A stretch of 64,000 bases of DNA from Clostridium sp. AT4 (lineage in GTDB: Bacteria > Bacillota > Clostridia > Lachnospirales > Lachnospiraceae): NCBI RefSeq assembly GCF_001517625.2, contig NZ_LN999828.1, positions 946,303 through 1,010,302 of the forward strand, read 5' to 3'. The notes beneath the pieces are model-generated. The model ran no database searches and was not told the DNA's origin. It was given only the letters and a program-made list of their open reading frames with translations. The stretch's first letter is position 1, and each line of letters begins with the position of its first letter. The translations under genes were made by a program, and so were the position numbers. Shown here in pieces: positions 284 through 43,704 of this stretch.

Positions 284-1012
284 ATGGAAGAGACCATCAG
301 GCAGATCCAGAACGCCCACCAAGGGGATAAAGCGGCCAGAGACCGGCTGGTAACGGAAAATACAGGACTGGTGTGGAGCATTGTCCGCAGGTTCGCAGGT
401 AGAGGATACGAGCTGGAAGATTTATTTCAGATTGGAAGTATTGGTCTTATGAAAGCCATTGATAAGTTTGATACCAACTATGAAGTGAAATTTTCCACCT
501 ATGCGGTTCCTATGATCGCAGGAGAAATCCGGCGTTTTATGAGAGATGACGGAATGATAAAGGTAAGCCGTTCCGTTAAGGAGCTGGGCTTTAAGGCCAG
601 AAATGCCGCAGAAGAGCTGACTAAAATACTGGGACGGGAGCCTACCATTGAAGAGATTGCAGAGAAAACAGGGGCCAGCCGTGAGGAGATAGCAGCGTCC
701 CTGGAGGCGGCGGCAGAGGTGGAATCCCTCTATAAGCCATTGGGAAACAGCGGTGACAAGGAACTGCTTTTGATGGACCGGCTGGAGGAGGAGCATGACA
801 GCCACGAAGAACTGTTAAACCATCTTGTTTTAAAGGAACTGATGGAAGGACTCACAGACCAGCACAGAGAAATCATATTGAGAAGGTATTTTTACAGCCA
901 GACTCAGACTCAGGTAGCAAAGGCGCTTAACATTTCTCAGGTACAGGTTTCTCGTCTGGAAAAACGGATCTTAAAGGAGATGCGGAAACGCTATGAGGAG
1001 GGAAGCAGCTGA
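284..1012 (+). CDS. sigF: RNA polymerase sigma-F factor (early forespore)
   Basis: This is a 242-residue sigma-70 family factor of the SigF/SigG/SigB group. Region 2 is clear (ELEDLFQIGSIGLMKAIDKFD, then KFSTYAVPMIAGEIRRFMRDDG). Region 3 follows (VSRSVKELGFKARNAAEELTKILGREPT), and region 4 holds the HTH (TQTQVAKALNISQVQVSRLEKRILKEMR). I chose ATG 284 because it follows the spoIIAB stop directly; the in-frame codon upstream at 236 lies inside spoIIAB. Position after spoIIAB separates sigF from sigG, which has similar domains. It would direct the first forespore-specific transcription, and its release from SpoIIAB is the control point. Confidence 0.95.
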   Translation: MEETIRQIQNAHQGDKAARDRLVTENTGLVWSIVRRFAGRGYELEDLFQIGSIGLMKAIDKFDTNYEVKFSTYAVPMIAGEIRRFMRDDGMIKVSRSVKELGFKARNAAEELTKILGREPTIEEIAEKTGASREEIAASLEAAAEVESLYKPLGNSGDKELLLMDRLEEEHDSHEELLNHLVLKELMEGLTDQHREIILRRYFYSQTQTQVAKALNISQVQVSRLEKRILKEMRKRYEEGSS

Positions 1013-36739: not shown

Positions 36740-38020
36740 ATGACAAAAAAGCGTTCATTAGACACTATCTGTATTCAGGGTGGCTGGGAGCCGAAAAACG
36801 GCGAACCAAGACAGCTGCCTATTTACCAGAGCACGACCTTTAAGTACACCTCAAGCGAGCAGATGGGACGTCTGTTTGATCTGGAAGAAAACGGATATTT
36901 CTATACAAGACTGGCAAACCCCACCAATGACGCGGTCGCAGCCAAGATCTGCGAGCTGGAGGGCGGTGTGGGCGCCATGCTTACTTCCTCAGGCCAGGCG
37001 GCTAATTTTTATGCGGTGATGAATCTGTGTCAGGCAGGAGACCATGTGGTAAGCTCTGCGGCTATTTACGGCGGGACAACGAACCTCTTTACGGTTACGA
37101 TCCCTAAAATGGGAGTGGAATGTACCCTGGTAAGCCCGGATGCCACTGAAGAGGAGCTGGCAGCAGCGTTCCGCCCCAATACAAAGGCATTATTTGCAGA
37201 GACCATTGCCAACCCTGCATTAACGGTTCTGGATATTGAAAAATTTGCAAAAGCAGCCCATGACCATGGTGTTCCCCTGATTGTGGACAATACATTTGCA
37301 ACCCCTATCAACTGTCGTCCCTTTGAGTGGGGAGCAGATATTGTAACCCACAGTACCACCAAGTACATGGACGGCCACGCCATGACCATAGGCGGCTGTA
37401 TCGTAGACAGCGGCAATTTTGACTGGGAGGCTCACCACGATAAGTTTAAGTGCCTGACAGAGCCGGATGAGTCCTATCACGGTGTAATCTATACGCAGAA
37501 ATTCGGGAAAATGGCCTATATTACAAAGGCTACTGCACAGCTGATGCGTGACCTTGGATCGATCCAGTCTCCCCAGCATGCCTTTCTGATCAACGTAGGC
37601 CTTGAGACTCTTCATCTGAGAATGCCCCGGCACTGTGAAAATGCATATAAGGTAGCTTCCTATCTGAAATCCAGAGAGGATGTGGCCTGGGTAAATTATC
37701 CCGGACTGGAAGGCGACAAATATTATGAGCTTGCAAAGAAATATATGCCGGATGGTACCTGCGGCGTTATTTCCTTTGGCTTAAAATCCGGCAGAGAGGG
37801 AGCAGCCAGATTTATGGATCGGTTAAAGCTCTGCTCCATTGAAACCCATGTGGCTGATTCCCGCACAGCCGTTCTTCATCCTGCAAGCCATACGCATAGA
37901 CAGCTGACCAATGAGCAGCTTGTAGAGGCAGGCGTTGATCCGTCCATGATCCGCTTCAGCGTCGGTATTGAGGATGCAGAGGATATCATAGAAGATATTC
38001 GTCAGGCATTAGAGGAATAA
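36740..38020 (+). CDS. O-acetylhomoserine sulfhydrylase / aminocarboxypropyltransferase (MetY type)
   Basis: This PLP enzyme joins sulfide (or a thiol) to O-acetylhomoserine to make homocysteine for methionine. The 426-residue protein has the Cys/Met-metabolism fold: FYTRLANPTNDAVAAKICELEGG, the cofactor-stacking YGGTTNLF, the PLP-contacting VDNTFATP, and the Schiff-base lysine in HSTTKYMDGH. The long insertion near residues 225-260 (EAHHDKFKCLTEPDESYHG) is typical of the MetY branch and not of cystathionine lyases. It is a single-gene unit with its own promoter. Confidence 0.93.
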   Translation: MTKKRSLDTICIQGGWEPKNGEPRQLPIYQSTTFKYTSSEQMGRLFDLEENGYFYTRLANPTNDAVAAKICELEGGVGAMLTSSGQAANFYAVMNLCQAGDHVVSSAAIYGGTTNLFTVTIPKMGVECTLVSPDATEEELAAAFRPNTKALFAETIANPALTVLDIEKFAKAAHDHGVPLIVDNTFATPINCRPFEWGADIVTHSTTKYMDGHAMTIGGCIVDSGNFDWEAHHDKFKCLTEPDESYHGVIYTQKFGKMAYITKATAQLMRDLGSIQSPQHAFLINVGLETLHLRMPRHCENAYKVASYLKSREDVAWVNYPGLEGDKYYELAKKYMPDGTCGVISFGLKSGREGAARFMDRLKLCSIETHVADSRTAVLHPASHTHRQLTNEQLVEAGVDPSMIRFSVGIEDAEDIIEDIRQALEE

Positions 38021-38122: not shown

Positions 38123-38151
38123 TAGACTAAATTTTTTTAAGGGTATATAAT
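38123..38151 (+). promoter_or_regulatory. Promoter ahead of the purine riboswitch
   Basis: TAGACT at 38123-38128 and a perfect TATAAT at 38146-38151, spacing 17. Transcription would start near 38158, about 25 bases before the aptamer. Confidence 0.6.
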
Positions 38152-38180
38152 ATAGATAATTCAATAAAGCAAATTGTCTG

Positions 38181-38267
38181 ATATGTATATCCTGGGGATT
38201 GGCCCAGAGTCTCTACCAACTACCTTAAGAGTTGACTACATACATTTATGTAGTCAGCTCTTTTTTT
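38181..38267 (+). promoter_or_regulatory. Variant guanine-type purine riboswitch with terminator (predicted ON switch)
   Basis: The purine aptamer fold is visible: P1 38182-38187 / 38237-38242; P2 38192-38196 / 38203-38207 with loop GATTGG; joining strand GTCTCTACC (38209-38217); P3 38217-38221 / 38230-38234 with loop containing CCTTAA; closing GACTAC with cytosine 38236 at the ligand-pairing place (C74 of the xpt aptamer), which indicates a guanine-like ligand rather than adenine. Loop GG and CC can kiss as usual. Departures are C at the place of U48, and one base fewer in J1/2, L2 and L3. A 15-bp terminator stem (38228-38242 / 38247-38261) plus seven T uses P3' and P1' as its left arm, so ligand binding should prevent termination. 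The genes downstream degrade and move purines. Confidence 0.82.
38228..38267 (+). terminator. Riboswitch expression-platform terminator
   Basis: AGAGTTGACTACATA (38228-38242) pairs with 38247-38261 over 15 bp with one T-G wobble, a four-base loop, then TTTTTTT to 38267. Its left arm is shared with aptamer helices P3 and P1, so the two folds exclude each other. The stretch 38268-38437 up to the gene holds only the ribosome site AAGGAGG near the end; the rest of the 417-base gap is A/T-rich leader. Confidence 0.88.
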
Positions 38268-38437
38268 GTACCTGTTTATAAGCTGGGCGTTGTTGGATTT
38301 TAACAGTTATTTTTACCTGAAAAATTCATGCTTGCGGCATTGGTATAAAAAGAGAGCTGTCCGTTTATCCGAGGATGAAAGAATCGGAACGATCGTTCGG
38401 GATGCAGAAACAGACAGTAAAGTAAGGAGGAAATACA

Positions 38438-40864
38438 ATGAAAGTTGTTGGCCAGGAAATCACACGCGTGGACGCTTTCGGTAAAGTGACCGGTGAAGCC
38501 AAGTATACCGCAGATTTGGAACCCAGAGATATCCTTCATGGAAAAGTCGTCCATTCCACCATTGCAAACGGCCTTGTAAAGAGCTTTGATCTGGACGAGG
38601 CGTTAAAGGTGCCGGGAGTGGTAAAGATCGTCACCTGTTTTGATGTTCCGGATATCCAGTTTCCCACCGCAGGTCATCCCTGGAGCGTGGAGTTAAAGCA
38701 TCAGGATATCTGTGACAGAAAGCTTTTAAATCAGAGAGTTCGCCTTTATGGGGATGATATTGCGGCAGTTGTGGCTGAAAATGAAGTGGCTGCGGCTCAG
38801 GCGGCTCGTCTGATCAAGGTTGAGTACGAGGAGTACGAACCCATTGTTACCGTAGAAGCGGCATTAAAGCCGGAGGCAACACCTCTTCATCCCGATCTCA
38901 GAAAGGACAACGTAGTCGTTCATTCCCATATGACCATGGGATCTTCTGATTTTACTTTTGAAGAGGGAAGAAAGAAAGCCATTGAAGAGTACGGAGAGGA
39001 AAACCTGGTGGAGATTGATGAAACATATGATACTCCAAGGATTTCCCACTGCCATATTGAGCTTCCCGTTTCCTGGTCCTATGTGGATACAAACGGAAAA
39101 GTGACCATTGTTTCTTCCACGCAGCTTCCCCATATTGTACGCCGTGTAACGGCTCAGGCATTGGGAATCCCAGTTGGTAAGGTCCGCGTGATTAAGCCCT
39201 ATATCGGAGGCGGTTTTGGTAACAAGCAGGATGTACTTTATGAGCCGTTAAATGCCTTCCTTTCCATGAGTGTAGGCGGAAGAGCCGTCCGGATGGAGAT
39301 CAGCCGCGAGGAAACCATTTCCGGAACCCGTACCCGCCATGCGATCAAGGGCGTGTGCAAGGGTATTGTTGCAAAGGACGGAACCGTACTTGCAAGACAG
39401 CTGGAGGCCTTTGCCAACAACGGCGGCTATGCCTCCCATGGTCACGCTATCTGTGCCAACTGCGGAAATGTATTTAAGGATCTGTATAAAGACCGGCTGG
39501 GTACAGAGGTAGACTGCTGGACTGTTTATACCTCTTCCCCTACGGCAGGAGCCATGAGAGCATACGGCATCCCCCAGGCAGATTGGTTTGCAGAGTGTCT
39601 GACAGATGATATGGCAGATGCAGTCGGTATGGATCCCTGTGAATTCCGCTTAAAGAACTGTCTGGATGCAGGCTTTGTGGATCCGGCCAACGGTATTACA
39701 TTCCATACATATGGCCTGACCGAGTGCATTAAAAAAGGCCGGGAGTACATTCACTGGGACGAAAAGAGAGAGGCCTATAAGAATCAGACCGGACCGGTGA
39801 GAAGAGGTGTGGGAATGGCGATGTTTATTTACAAAACAGGCGTTTATCCCATTTCTCTGGAAACTGCTTCTGCCCGTATCACTTTAAATCAGGACGGTTC
39901 CATCCAGCTTTCCATGGGCGCTACGGAAATCGGACAGGGAGCAGATACCGTATTCACTCAGATGGCGGCAGAGACTACTGGAATCAGCGTAGACAGGGTA
40001 TATATCAATTCCACACAGGATACGGATGTAACTCCCTTTGATACAGGTGCTTATGCGTCCCGTCAGACCTATGTATCCGGCATGGCCTGCAAAAAGTGTG
40101 CCTTAGAGTTCCGTCAGAAGGTCTTAGAGTATGCTGCCTATATGCTGAACCATGATGTGACAGATCTTTCAAAGACGGTCTATGCAGATCTTGTAAAGGA
40201 GGCTGCCGGTAAGGTACGTCAGGTTCTGGGGCTTCATGCAGAGGAGGAAATTACCTGGGAGATGTTAGACATTGCGGACAGCCAGGTGGTTGTAAACGGC
40301 GGCGATCCGGTACTCTTTGATGTGGCGGTAGTAGCTGATACAGCGTTCTATTCCTTAGACCGCTCTATCCATATTACAGCAGAGGTTACAAACCAGTGCA
40401 AGGACAATACCTTTGCTTCCGGCTGCTGCTTTGTGGATCTGGAAATCGATATGCCTCTGGGTCTTGTGACTGTAAAGGATGTGATCAATGTCCATGACTC
40501 CGGTATCCTGATCAATCCGAAGACAGCCGCCGGACAGGTACACGGCGGTATGAGCATGAGCCTTGGTTTTGGACTTTCTGAGGAGCTTTTAGTAGATGAA
40601 AAGACCGGAAAACCGTTAAATAATAACCTTCTGGATTACAAGATCCCTACCGCTATGGATGCTCCGGAGCTTCATGTGGAATTTATCCAGTTAGACGATC
40701 CTACAGGCCCTTATGGAAACAAATCTCTGGGCGAGCCGCCGGCAATTCCGGTTGCTCCGGCGATCCGGAACGCCATCCTTCATGCAACCGGCGTACATAT
40801 GAATACAGCGCCTATGACAGCCCAGCGTCTGATCGCAGCGTTTAAAGAAAAGGGACTTATTTAA
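38438..40864 (+). CDS. xdhA: Xanthine dehydrogenase-type hydroxylase, molybdopterin subunit
   Basis: The 808-residue large subunit carries the molybdenum cofactor and hydroxylates purines or related N-heterocycles. Visible family marks: VTGEAKYTADL at the N-terminus, IGGGFGNKQDV and RTRHAIKG for cofactor binding, AGAMRAYGIPQ, EIGQGADTVFTQMAAE, and the catalytic base Glu in YGNKSLGEPPAIPVAPAI near residue 755. Subunit order Mo, FAD, FeS in one operon matches bacterial xdhABC. Substrate (xanthine, hypoxanthine or another) is inferred from the purine riboswitch ahead and the NCS2 permease behind. Confidence 0.92.
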   Translation: MKVVGQEITRVDAFGKVTGEAKYTADLEPRDILHGKVVHSTIANGLVKSFDLDEALKVPGVVKIVTCFDVPDIQFPTAGHPWSVELKHQDICDRKLLNQRVRLYGDDIAAVVAENEVAAAQAARLIKVEYEEYEPIVTVEAALKPEATPLHPDLRKDNVVVHSHMTMGSSDFTFEEGRKKAIEEYGEENLVEIDETYDTPRISHCHIELPVSWSYVDTNGKVTIVSSTQLPHIVRRVTAQALGIPVGKVRVIKPYIGGGFGNKQDVLYEPLNAFLSMSVGGRAVRMEISREETISGTRTRHAIKGVCKGIVAKDGTVLARQLEAFANNGGYASHGHAICANCGNVFKDLYKDRLGTEVDCWTVYTSSPTAGAMRAYGIPQADWFAECLTDDMADAVGMDPCEFRLKNCLDAGFVDPANGITFHTYGLTECIKKGREYIHWDEKREAYKNQTGPVRRGVGMAMFIYKTGVYPISLETASARITLNQDGSIQLSMGATEIGQGADTVFTQMAAETTGISVDRVYINSTQDTDVTPFDTGAYASRQTYVSGMACKKCALEFRQKVLEYAAYMLNHDVTDLSKTVYADLVKEAAGKVRQVLGLHAEEEITWEMLDIADSQVVVNGGDPVLFDVAVVADTAFYSLDRSIHITAEVTNQCKDNTFASGCCFVDLEIDMPLGLVTVKDVINVHDSGILINPKTAAGQVHGGMSMSLGFGLSEELLVDEKTGKPLNNNLLDYKIPTAMDAPELHVEFIQLDDPTGPYGNKSLGEPPAIPVAPAIRNAILHATGVHMNTAPMTAQRLIAAFKEKGLI

Positions 40865-40884: not shown

Positions 40885-41775
40885 ATGTTTGATATAAAAT
40901 CATTTTACGAGGCAAAGGATGTACAGGATGCTGTGCAGGCTCTGGTAAATGAGCCGGATGCAGAGGTGATCAGCGGTGGTACCGACGTACTGATCCGTGT
41001 AAGAGAGGGAAAGGATGCAGGAAAAGCCCTTGTATCTATCCACAATATTCCGGAGCTTAAGGGAGTAAATGTTCTGGAAAACGGAGATCTCTGGATCGGA
41101 GCAGCTACTGCATTTTCCCATATTACAAATGATCCCCTGATCCAGAAGCTGATCCCCATGCTGGGTGAGGCAGTGGATATGGTGGGTGGACCTCAGATCC
41201 GCAACACAGGAACCATCGGCGGAAATATCTGCAATGGAGCTACTTCTGCAGATTCAGCTTCTACCATGTGGACCTTAAATGCCAAAGTGATCCTAGTGGG
41301 ACCGGAAGGGGAGAGAATCGTTCCCATCTGCAAGTTTTATACAGGTCCCGGACGGACCGTAAGAGCCAGAGAAGAGGTATGTACGGGCTTTCTCATTGCA
41401 AAAGAGGATTATGAGGGCTGGTACGGCCAGTATGTAAAGTACGGAAAGAGAAAGGCCATGGAGATTGCCACTTTAGGCTGTGCAGTCCGGGTAAAGCTTT
41501 CAGAAGACAAGACGGTCATTGAGGATGTGCGCCTGGGCTACGGAGTGGCAGGACCTACGCCCCTTCGCTGCCGGAACGCAGAGGAAGGCTTAAAAGGAGC
41601 AAGAGTGGATGACAAAGAGGCGGCAGAGCAGTTTGCAAAAACAGCGCTCACAGAAGTAAATCCCCGTTCTTCCTGGAGAGCATCCAAGGAATTCCGCTTA
41701 CAGCTCATTGAGGAGTTAGCAAAGCGTGCACTGGCAGAATCTATCACAAGAGCAGGAGGTAATTGCAATGCTTAA
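40885..41775 (+). CDS. xdhB: Xanthine dehydrogenase-type hydroxylase, FAD subunit
   Basis: The 296-residue flavoprotein belongs to the CO-dehydrogenase/xanthine-dehydrogenase FAD-binding family. FAD-contacting motifs are AEVISGGTDVLIRVREGK near residue 30 and the paired loop GGPQIRNTGTIGGNICNGATSADS near residue 95-115. The C-terminal domain follows from about residue 175. It passes electrons from the FeS subunit to its acceptor, probably NAD or a ferredoxin. GAAGGAGAAATAAGGC precedes the ATG. The last 8 bases overlap xdhC. Confidence 0.92.
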   Translation: MFDIKSFYEAKDVQDAVQALVNEPDAEVISGGTDVLIRVREGKDAGKALVSIHNIPELKGVNVLENGDLWIGAATAFSHITNDPLIQKLIPMLGEAVDMVGGPQIRNTGTIGGNICNGATSADSASTMWTLNAKVILVGPEGERIVPICKFYTGPGRTVRAREEVCTGFLIAKEDYEGWYGQYVKYGKRKAMEIATLGCAVRVKLSEDKTVIEDVRLGYGVAGPTPLRCRNAEEGLKGARVDDKEAAEQFAKTALTEVNPRSSWRASKEFRLQLIEELAKRALAESITRAGGNCNA

Positions 41776-42259
41776 GATCATACATATGAAAGTAAACGGA
41801 AAAGAGCATGAACTGGCAGTGGACGAGAGAGAGTCCCTTTTAGATACTCTGCGTCTGCGCCTGGGGCTGACTTCGGTGAAAAAGGGCTGTGAGGTAGGAG
41901 AGTGCGGAGCCTGTACGGTACTGGTAAACGGAGAGGCCATTGACAGCTGTATTTATCTGACCATGTGGGCAGATGGAAAGAGCGTAATGACCGTAGAAGG
42001 CTTAAAGGGGCCAAACGGCGAGCTTTCTCCGATCCAGAAGGCATTCATTGAGGAGGCTGCCGTACAGTGCGGCTTCTGTACGCCGGGCCTGATCATGAGT
42101 GCGGTTGAGATCGTGGGAACGGGAAAGAAGTACAACCGCGAAGAGCTTAAAAAGCTCATTTCCGGTCATCTGTGCCGCTGCACGGGCTATGAGAACATTT
42201 TAAACGCTATGGAACGGATTGTGGAAGAAGTATATCAGACCACACATAAAGAAGCATAG
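41768..42259 (+). CDS. xdhC: Xanthine dehydrogenase-type hydroxylase, 2[2Fe-2S] subunit
   Basis: The 163-residue iron-sulfur subunit has a plant-ferredoxin type N-terminal domain ([21 protein letters not shown]) and the four-helix second domain with [12 protein letters not shown] and [11 protein letters not shown], giving eight cysteine ligands for two clusters. ATG 41768 is chosen because AGGAGGT (41754-41760) stands seven bases before it and it overlaps the xdhB stop; the upstream in-frame ATG lies well inside xdhB. It carries electrons from molybdopterin to FAD. Confidence 0.94.
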
Positions 42260-42339
42260 AATGAGTGTGCCGGCAGATGTCTGGTCTGGGGAGATAAATA
42301 AAGACAGCTGCCGGCATGAGAATGGAGGCGGTAAATCGT

Positions 42340-43704
42340 ATGGGGAAAACAGCAAAAACAGCAGGAAATGCAGCAGACTGCAGTATTAACAACATATACA
42401 GACTGGAGGGAAGAGTGCCCATCGGAAAGGCTATTCCCTTTGGACTGCAGCATATTTTAGCCATGTTCGTTTCAAACCTGGCGCCGATCACCATTATTGC
42501 GGGAGCGTCCAAGACGCCGCTTACACCGGCCCAGTTGGGTATGCTTCTGCAGAACGCCATGTTTGTAGCAGGCATTGCTACCATGATTCAGCTTTATCCT
42601 ATCTGGCGGATCGGATCAAAGCTTCCTGTGGTTATGGGTGTAAGTTTTACCTTCGTAACGGTGCTCAGTACCATTTCAGCCAATTACGGCTATCCGGCTG
42701 TAGTAGGAGCGGTTCTGGTGGGAGGTCTCTTTGAAGGAACCTTAGGACTGATGGCAAAATACTGGAGAAAGATCATTACTCCGATCGTAGCGGCCTCTGT
42801 AGTAACGGCCATCGGTTTTTCACTCTTTACCGTAGGAGCCAGATCTTTTGGCGGCGGCTATAATGATGATTTCGGTTCTGCCCAGAACCTGATCCTTGGA
42901 ACCGTAACACTGGCTACCTGTCTTTTGTGGAATATTTTTGCAAAGGGATATCTAAAGCAGCTTTCCGTTTTAGCCGGCCTGGTAGTAGGATATATTCTGG
43001 CGATCACCATGGGAAAGGTAGATCTGTCTATGATCATGTCCGGTGGAATCATTTCCCTGCCCCATCTGATGCCCTTTAAGCCGGAATTTTATCCGGGAGC
43101 GATTATCTCCGCATGTATCATTTTCCTGGTGTCTGCGGCTGAGACCATCGGCGATACCTCTGCTCTGGTAGCAGGCGGATTAAACCGGAAGATCACAGGA
43201 GAGGAAATCTCAGGTTCCCTGGGCTGCGACGGCTATGGTTCCGTTATTTCTGGTCTCTTTGGATGTCCTCCTGTAACTTCTTTTTCACAGAACGTAGGCC
43301 TTGTCAATATGACAAAGGTAGTGAACCGTTTTACGATCATGACGGGCGCTGCCTGCATGATTTTAGCAGGACTTCTTCCGCCGGTGGGAAATTTCTTTGC
43401 TTCCCTTCCGGACGCAGTATTAGGAGGATGTACGATCATGATGTTTGGAACTATCTTAACCTCTGGTATTCAGATGGTGGCTGACTGCGGTTTCTCTCAG
43501 AGAAATATTACCATTGCAGCGTTGTCCTTATCCATCGGCATCGGTTTTACCACAGCCAGCGAGGTCGGGATCTGGGATATCTTCCCGCCGATGATCCAGT
43601 CCGTATTTTCTGCCAATGTGGTAGCGGTAGTGTTTGTAGTATCTATTATTTTAAGCCTGATCCTTCCAAAAGATATGGACGTGAAAAAGATCGATCAGCA
43701 GTAG
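42340..43704 (+). CDS. NCS2-family xanthine/uric acid/uracil permease
   Basis: This proton-linked nucleobase transporter of about 454 residues has 14 membrane segments by pattern. The NCS2 mark is the stretch around AAETIGDTSALVAGGLNRK and the following GCPPVTSFSQNVGLVNMTKVVNR, where the substrate-binding Glu and the QNxGxxxxT motif sit. ATG 42340 was preferred (GGAGG 11 bases ahead) over in-frame ATGs at 42316 and 42322. It follows xdhC by 80 bases without terminator and so belongs to the riboswitch-controlled unit, feeding purines to the hydroxylase. Confidence 0.9.
   Translation: MGKTAKTAGNAADCSINNIYRLEGRVPIGKAIPFGLQHILAMFVSNLAPITIIAGASKTPLTPAQLGMLLQNAMFVAGIATMIQLYPIWRIGSKLPVVMGVSFTFVTVLSTISANYGYPAVVGAVLVGGLFEGTLGLMAKYWRKIITPIVAASVVTAIGFSLFTVGARSFGGGYNDDFGSAQNLILGTVTLATCLLWNIFAKGYLKQLSVLAGLVVGYILAITMGKVDLSMIMSGGIISLPHLMPFKPEFYPGAIISACIIFLVSAAETIGDTSALVAGGLNRKITGEEISGSLGCDGYGSVISGLFGCPPVTSFSQNVGLVNMTKVVNRFTIMTGAACMILAGLLPPVGNFFASLPDAVLGGCTIMMFGTILTSGIQMVADCGFSQRNITIAALSLSIGIGFTTASEVGIWDIFPPMIQSVFSANVVAVVFVVSIILSLILPKDMDVKKIDQQ

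Follow-up and report, generated by a model that had tools for sequence, protein, structure and literature searches.

We suggest that the xdhABC-pbuX operon in the window analysed here (the whole 64-kb stretch of DNA) is governed by a transcriptional ON switch, composed of a guanine-I class purine aptamer and an intrinsic terminator that directly overlaps it; we put the probability of this reading at roughly three in four. Without ligand, P3' and P1' would be drawn into a 16-bp terminator hairpin, and the transcript would stop near position 38265. With guanine bound, or hypoxanthine or xanthine at presumably lower affinity, P1 and P3 would hold the left arm of the terminator, which would permit read-through in the cell. 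Free guanine would be the signal for purine uptake and degradation, since two further switches of the same genome precede an NCS2 permease-guanine deaminase pair and an adenine deaminase gene. Both the ON direction and the purine-catabolism target are well supported by the anatomy of the leader and by its conservation in relatives.

A search of the whole window against all Rfam models placed the purine aptamer RF00167 at 38163-38258 of the forward strand, between a promoter-like site and xdhABC-pbuX, with 50.4 bits against a gathering threshold of 37 (E 1.5e-5); beyond RF00167, nothing in the window matched at the gathering threshold. The genus alignment and the fold place the 5' strand of P1 at 38182-38187 (partner 38237-38242), the P2 hairpin at 38192-38207 (38192-38196 with 38203-38207, loop L2 at 38197-38202) and the P3 hairpin at 38217-38234 (38217-38221 with 38230-38234), all on the forward strand. 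J2/3 (GUCUCUAC, 38209-38216) holds the equivalents of U47 (38210), C48 (38211) and U51 (38214), U22 corresponds to 38188, and C74, the expected Watson-Crick partner of the purine, to 38236, all four contact residues (U22, U47, U51 and C74) being intact. J3/1 is AC, and both J2/3 and J3/1 have the Rfam consensus lengths. Judged from the letters only, the CC of L3 (38223-38224) is able to pair with the GG of L2 (38201-38202). The covariance score bears out the initial annotation, which had described a complete purine aptamer with a pairing cytosine at 38236, and its placing of a C at the U48 equivalent, 38211, was also right.

The paired structure is well supported by a genus alignment (A1). It has 25 rows, drawn from 29 loci scoring over the cut-off; the near-copies L008, L011, L012 and L019 were left out, as were L004 and L029 (RF00167 score below gathering); for the genus locus set itself, 8 of 39 RF00167 matches had been left out. 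Paired cells make up 94.3% and cells changed on both sides number 54, neither figure being reached by any of 500 shuffles; eight pairs changed on both sides (13/500 shuffles reach eight), and the number of further pair types was not above that of the 500 shuffles. In P2, five of the six column pairs change on both sides, and the GG of L2 and the CC of L3 are invariant in all 22 distinct rows.

A wider set of 136 aptamers was reduced to 122 unique ones by dropping near-identical leaders; a regex scan for related leaders gave 43 rows, one of which, L064, was a false match (fold -4.6 kcal/mol). In the alignment columns, position 47 and positions 49-53 (U47, U49, C50, U51, A52, C53) are constant in 122/122 aptamers, U22 is present in all 121 rows holding that position, and C74 in 121 of 122. 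The constancy of these contact letters is partly selected for, because the search model behind the set (R1) favours such letters; this does not apply to the variation at position 48. The sole U74, the adenine-type letter, was seen in L225 (6001-6071, reverse strand).

Upstream of the aptamer lies a promoter-like TAGACT-17 nt-TATAAT (38123-38151, forward strand), found by motif scan. Related leaders carry TATAAT 24-33 bases before the core in 13/13 cases and the layout T(A/G)GACT-17 nt-TATAAT in 12/13; the scan counts themselves are near chance, for promoters (3 found, 2.6 expected) as for terminators (1 found, 0.9 expected). The spacer between -35 and -10 often holds an A/T palindrome, CTAAAA...TTTTAG (38123-38151 and related leaders, by eye), which may serve as an operator for another regulator, or else be a feature of the promoter spacer.

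This promoter bears on the possibility that the hairpin merely terminates the upstream O-acetylhomoserine sulfhydrylase gene, a same-strand neighbour with its end at 38020, and that the aptamer has decayed. We consider this highly improbable: the conserved promoter lies between that gene and the aptamer, aptamer and terminator are conserved together, and in L086 the same leader precedes xdhA even though the nearest upstream ORF of more than 150 aa runs in the other direction.

The intrinsic terminator (38227-38269, forward strand; scan and fold) comprises a left arm at 38227-38242, a right arm at 38247-38262 and a U tract. Its helix (38227-38262) has 16 bp, and the left arm is composed of P3', J3/1 and P1', so that the earlier proposal of an arm built from P3' and P1' was confirmed, with J3/1 included. 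In stepwise folding at 3-nt steps, P1, P2 and P3 are all in the best fold for transcripts ending at 38242-38251; once the transcript reaches 38254, P1 gives way to the terminator, followed by P3. The minimum free energy of the full leader is -33.2 kcal/mol, vs -18.4 kcal/mol with P1 forced, pseudoknot or loop-loop contact and ligand not counted. A ligand-stabilised aptamer would exclude the terminator, and the leader would therefore act as an ON switch; this direction, too, had been proposed initially from structure, and it is supported by the anatomy, the fold competition and the relatives. An OFF switch, which like canonical guanine riboswitches would terminate more when ligand is bound, would agree with guanine-I switches being commonly described as OFF (PMC9295807, excerpt), but the left arm of the terminator is itself P3' and P1', so that a bound aptamer excludes the terminator, and the folds of 38158-38270 contain no separate antiterminator. 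We hold this direction to be very unlikely, and it was rejected on the fold competition.

Across 17 leaders, 93.4% of the pair cells of the terminator helix are kept, a percentage reached by 83/500 shuffles, and two pairs changed on both sides, which 39/500 shuffles reach. This covariation is weak and uninformative, because the aptamer already fixes the left arm. The terminator arms are parted by only 4 bases, so the ligand must bind fast, which we count against the ON reading.

Downstream, all on the forward strand, follow xdhA (38438-40864), for the molybdenum subunit of xanthine dehydrogenase (NF043082, 1153 bits), xdhB (40885-41775), for the FAD subunit (NF043083, 424 bits), and xdhC (41726-42259), for the 2Fe-2S subunit (NF043084, 254 bits); the true start of xdhC is probably slightly inside the ORF, as the match begins at residue 17. 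Each of the three exceeds its NCBIfam equivalog cut-off, and the closest XdhA found, from Enterocloster alcoholdehydrogenati, is 91% identical. The next gene (42316-43704, forward strand) encodes a PbuX-like NCS2 permease, which is over the cut-off of TIGR00801 (ncs2) and reaches 392.4 bits with TIGR03173, for which the pbuX cut-off is 414.15. These genes match the purine-catabolism target named in the initial annotation.

In the genome itself (3.4 Mb), three purine aptamers score over the cut-off, and a further, weak match falls short of it. The second switch (C6:393889, L001) lies before an NCS2 permease gene, with guanine deaminase (C6:390955-392217) behind; the third precedes adenine deaminase, and the genome also has an SsnA gene that scores over its cut-off. 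The three switches and their genes can be read as one purine-breakdown gene set. In the permease-guaD leader L001 (C6:393889-393985) and its sister L014, the terminator lies well downstream and does not involve aptamer strands; this counts against our preferred reading, and that leader may act in either direction.

As to the shortened loops, the single-base losses in J1/2, L2 and L3 that had been noted at the outset are real in comparison with the Rfam consensus, against which P2' and P3 each lack a base as well, but in the genus alignment they are better read as a P2 one base pair shorter and an L2 one base shorter, in 25/25 rows. L3 is one base shorter in 13 of the 25, namely in 2/6 xdh leaders and in 11/11 guanine-deaminase and FAD-oxidoreductase leaders; among the genus aptamers on non-xdh genes this loss occurs in 11/19. 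The P2/L2 shortening extends beyond xdh leaders to those of guanine deaminase, permease and adenine deaminase genes (25 rows). Because it is shared by all 25 rows, non-xdh leaders included, we regard the small losses as lineage traits; as ligand markers they were rejected, being lineage-wide and also present on guanine deaminase and permease leaders.

Position 48 is variable in the 122 aptamers (U86, C29, A4, G3). C48 occurs in 9/11 leaders placed directly before xdhA, in 11/30 before guanine deaminase genes that share an operon with xdh, in 2/13 truncated guanine-deaminase loci and in 7/68 of the remaining classes, 13 of the 122 leaders being classed as 'other' and only partly identified. It is enriched near xdh (20/41 vs 7/68; Fisher p=1.7e-5, related rows not being independent; the 13 truncated loci were left out, and L046, which has U in the alignment, was counted as not C). 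Collapsed to genera, with each public contig as its own unit, the counts are 10/29 for xdh and 4/45 for non-xdh leaders, a weakly significant association (p=0.013).

This enrichment is an argument for a variant of changed specificity, in which C48 and the shortened P2, L2 and L3 would shift the preference of the pocket towards xanthine, urate or 8-oxoguanine, i.e. a substrate or product of xanthine dehydrogenase. The direct-xdhA leaders L156 and L170, which belong to another aptamer subtype, also have C48, and this repetition suggests that C48 may have arisen more than once; moreover, the guanine-I pocket is said to discriminate xanthine only about tenfold (PMC9295807, excerpt). However, the known contact residues are intact and the losses lineage-wide, xdhA leaders with U48 exist (L034, L214), and C48 is also found before non-xdh genes, i.e. 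guanine deaminase, permease and FAD-oxidoreductase genes and, in L237, the gene of a PnrA-like nucleoside-binding lipoprotein. In the nine genera with both kinds of leader, C48 is the majority in three for xdh leaders and in two for non-xdh leaders. Position 48 does not appear among the contact positions named in the available part of PMC9295807; in the add adenine aptamer, the base is solvent exposed on binding, and a U48 to 2-aminopurine replacement still responds to adenine (PMC4971091, excerpt).

C48 is thus neither required near xdh nor exclusive to it, and may represent a mild tuning change, not the mark of a new ligand. An altered ligand due to U48C was rejected as the main reading on the position 48 counts over 122 aptamers, and the initial view that U48C and the losses mark such a change did not survive the intact contacts, the variability of position 48 in relatives and the lineage-wide spread of the losses; we rate a pocket of changed specificity as unlikely. 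A narrower form, in which C48 (in xdhA leaders of two subtypes) and the shortened P2/L2 make a guanine-I aptamer retuned to xanthine, or responding equally to guanine, hypoxanthine and xanthine, seems to us rather improbable; were it true, xdh operons would sense their own substrate, while the sister guanine-deaminase leaders would sense guanine. We take guanine as the default ligand, because the contacts are intact, the losses are lineage-wide, U48 and C48 are both found across xdh and non-xdh leaders, and position 48 is replaceable. Xanthine or hypoxanthine is possible as a weaker or physiological co-ligand.

Two loci carry paired aptamers. In L216, tandem purine aptamers (401-472 and 567-636, forward strand) lie about 95 bases apart before guanine deaminase, the first with C48 and the second with U48. 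In L170 (401-470 and 1951-2022, forward strand), a U48 copy precedes guanine deaminase and a C48 copy precedes xdhA 1.5 kb later, a pair which offers a natural comparison for studying the effect of C48.

Among known classes, the arrangement resembles the pbuE-type adenine ON riboswitch, which we take to build the left arm of its terminator from aptamer strands and to read through with ligand; here, in place of the U74 of adenine riboswitches, C38236 indicates guanine-type pairing. The 8-oxoguanine riboswitch, also ON and located before a purine deaminase, is known only from Paenibacillaceae, where it accompanies 8-oxoguanine deaminase genes, and the window differs in having xdhABC-pbuX downstream and no 8-oxoguanine deaminase. 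With guanine-I (RF00167; the xpt type of B. subtilis) the window aptamer shares the three-way junction, the L2-L3 GG/CC contact and U22, U47, U51 and C74; it differs in the shorter P2 (one pair) and L2 (one base), in C48, in the ON direction and in its catabolic targets.

Xanthine-II RNAs, defined by U51G and insertions in J2-3 and J3-1, are ON switches near dioxygenase, allantoinase and xanthine dehydrogenase genes (PMC9295807, excerpt), and the ON architecture and the purine degradation genes are alike here; the window aptamer, however, has U at 38214, as have 122/122 relatives, and consensus-length joining regions. Guanine-II is likewise ON and keeps U22, U51 and C74, as does the window aptamer, but it has a one-base J2-3 insertion, which is absent here, along with most other xanthine-II variations, and stands mostly before phosphoribosyltransferase genes (PMC9295807, excerpt). 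Membership in xanthine-II and guanine-II was rejected on U51 and on the insertions. For 2'-dG-III, changes in all three joining regions and a downstream nucleoside hydrolase gene are described (PMC9295807, excerpt); in the window aptamer J2/3 departs from the consensus only at 48 and J3/1 nowhere, and the downstream gene is xdhA. The sequence tests place the window RNA in guanine-I and outside xanthine-II, guanine-II and 2'-dG-III.

Other reports concern related biology. Xanthine-I RNAs occur near purine degradation genes (PMC7373994, excerpt), and the glycine riboswitch is the sole riboswitch mentioned in the available part of PMC3519856. C. difficile is reported to have four OFF guanine riboswitches with high-affinity guanine binding, one of which responds specifically to xanthine (PMC11477304, excerpt); by analogy, the guanine binding speaks for our preferred reading and the xanthine response against it.

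The terminators of the related leaders make use of aptamer strands in more than one manner. In eight of the 11 direct-xdhA leaders, P3'/P1' form part of a terminator with no intervening stretch, an arrangement shared by many permease leaders of the same subtype as the window aptamer. In guanine-deaminase leaders with a U tract and in some FAD-oxidoreductase leaders, the terminator mostly lies 30-75 nt further downstream. There the P3 5' strand and L3 (AACUACCG) are the pairing partners of the upstream terminator arm, which typically reads CGGUAGUUUUU or CGGUGGUUUUU. On both platforms, aptamer and terminator are predicted to be mutually exclusive.

We compared each such arm with 200 shuffled arms (p<=0.05, uncorrected), leaders being testable if six consecutive U occurred within 200 nt (86/122; the 36 others include 16 of the 30 guanine-deaminase-with-xdh leaders). 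An arm-aptamer helix was significant in 56 of the 86, about 4 being expected by chance. By class, it was significant in 9/11 direct xdh leaders (7 via P3'/P1', 1 via P3 5' and 1 via another stretch), in 12 of the 14 testable guanine-deaminase-with-xdh leaders (30 in all), in 3/6 other and 8/10 truncated guanine-deaminase leaders, in 12/16 permease leaders and in 6/17 FAD-oxidoreductase leaders. L156 and L214 gave no significant helix in the 200-shuffle test; L034 passes via a different stretch of its aptamer, and the fold shows its P3'/P1' terminator. The leaders with no U tract (36/122) or no significant helix (30/86) count against our ON-switch reading. In the PbuX-type permease leader L264 (G056:C1:3721524-3721624, reverse strand), the last base of J2/3 is U in place of C (GUUUCUAU), and by eye the U-tract arm looks complementary to P3 5'.

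Aptamers of this kind recur in many genomes of the family. R1 was built from this genus, and its sample leans to such RNAs; it found an aptamer in 52/250 Lachnospiraceae genomes (E<=0.001) and in 70/396 (E<=1e-5; a larger draw overlapping the 250). From the smaller draw, with 69 R1 matches, 61 (60 regions) and 5 of G000/G001 were included, G141:C337 and G233 were left out, and G116 entered later as L254; from the larger, G141:C337 and G369:C121 were left out. Fairer is the sample obtained with the neutral Rfam model, which gave 35 RF00167 matches in 26/100 Lachnospiraceae genomes. In this sample, 26/35 matches precede purine catabolism or purine permease genes (joined by hand): xdh directly (3), guanine deaminase with xdh (8) or otherwise (9), adenine deaminase (2), a PbuX permease (1) and NCS2 permeases that we take to be AzgA-like, 'AzgA' being our own naming (3). 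FAD-dependent oxidoreductase (5), PnrA-like lipoprotein (2) and MATE transporter (2) genes were also found, and a purine-synthesis or xpt-type gene stood behind none of the 35 matches from the 100 genomes. Downstream labels were assigned mostly by tblastn to one reference protein each, those of L254 and L171 by resemblance to the scanned L237 and L173. Starting from the enzyme, 15 loci of 75 XdhA relatives had an R1 match upstream, and the other 60 had none within the flanking DNA examined.

The first gene in 25 of the 122 unique leaders (e.g. L016, L017, L018, L027, L028, L155, L160, L165) encodes an uncharacterised FAD-dependent oxidoreductase. The one member scanned matched Pfam PF21688 and Rossmann families and no NCBIfam family over its cut-off; the enzyme may belong to purine metabolism. 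In L171 and L173, a MATE-family transporter gene (L173 by Pfam, L171 by resemblance) immediately follows a guanine-type aptamer in which the bases leading up to C74 are unusual (TTAC, TTGC), and these transporters are possibly involved in purine efflux.

In most descriptions, guanine-I riboswitches restrain the synthesis, salvage and uptake of purines. Our literature search, which had most subscription journals outside its reach and judged mostly by title or the start of the abstract, found no paper in which they switch on guanine deaminase or xanthine dehydrogenase genes of Lachnospiraceae, which is weak evidence of novelty. The aptamer itself is of a known kind; what appears new is the proposed reversed direction together with the shared catabolic gene set. 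Across many Lachnospiraceae, the same pocket seems to accelerate purine breakdown, acting on guanine and adenine deaminases, xanthine dehydrogenase and permeases, with two distinct ways of making a terminator from aptamer strands. These leaders might constitute a natural set for studying the rewiring of one aptamer from OFF to ON, and offer a point at which the control of purine and urate turnover in gut bacteria can be tested directly.
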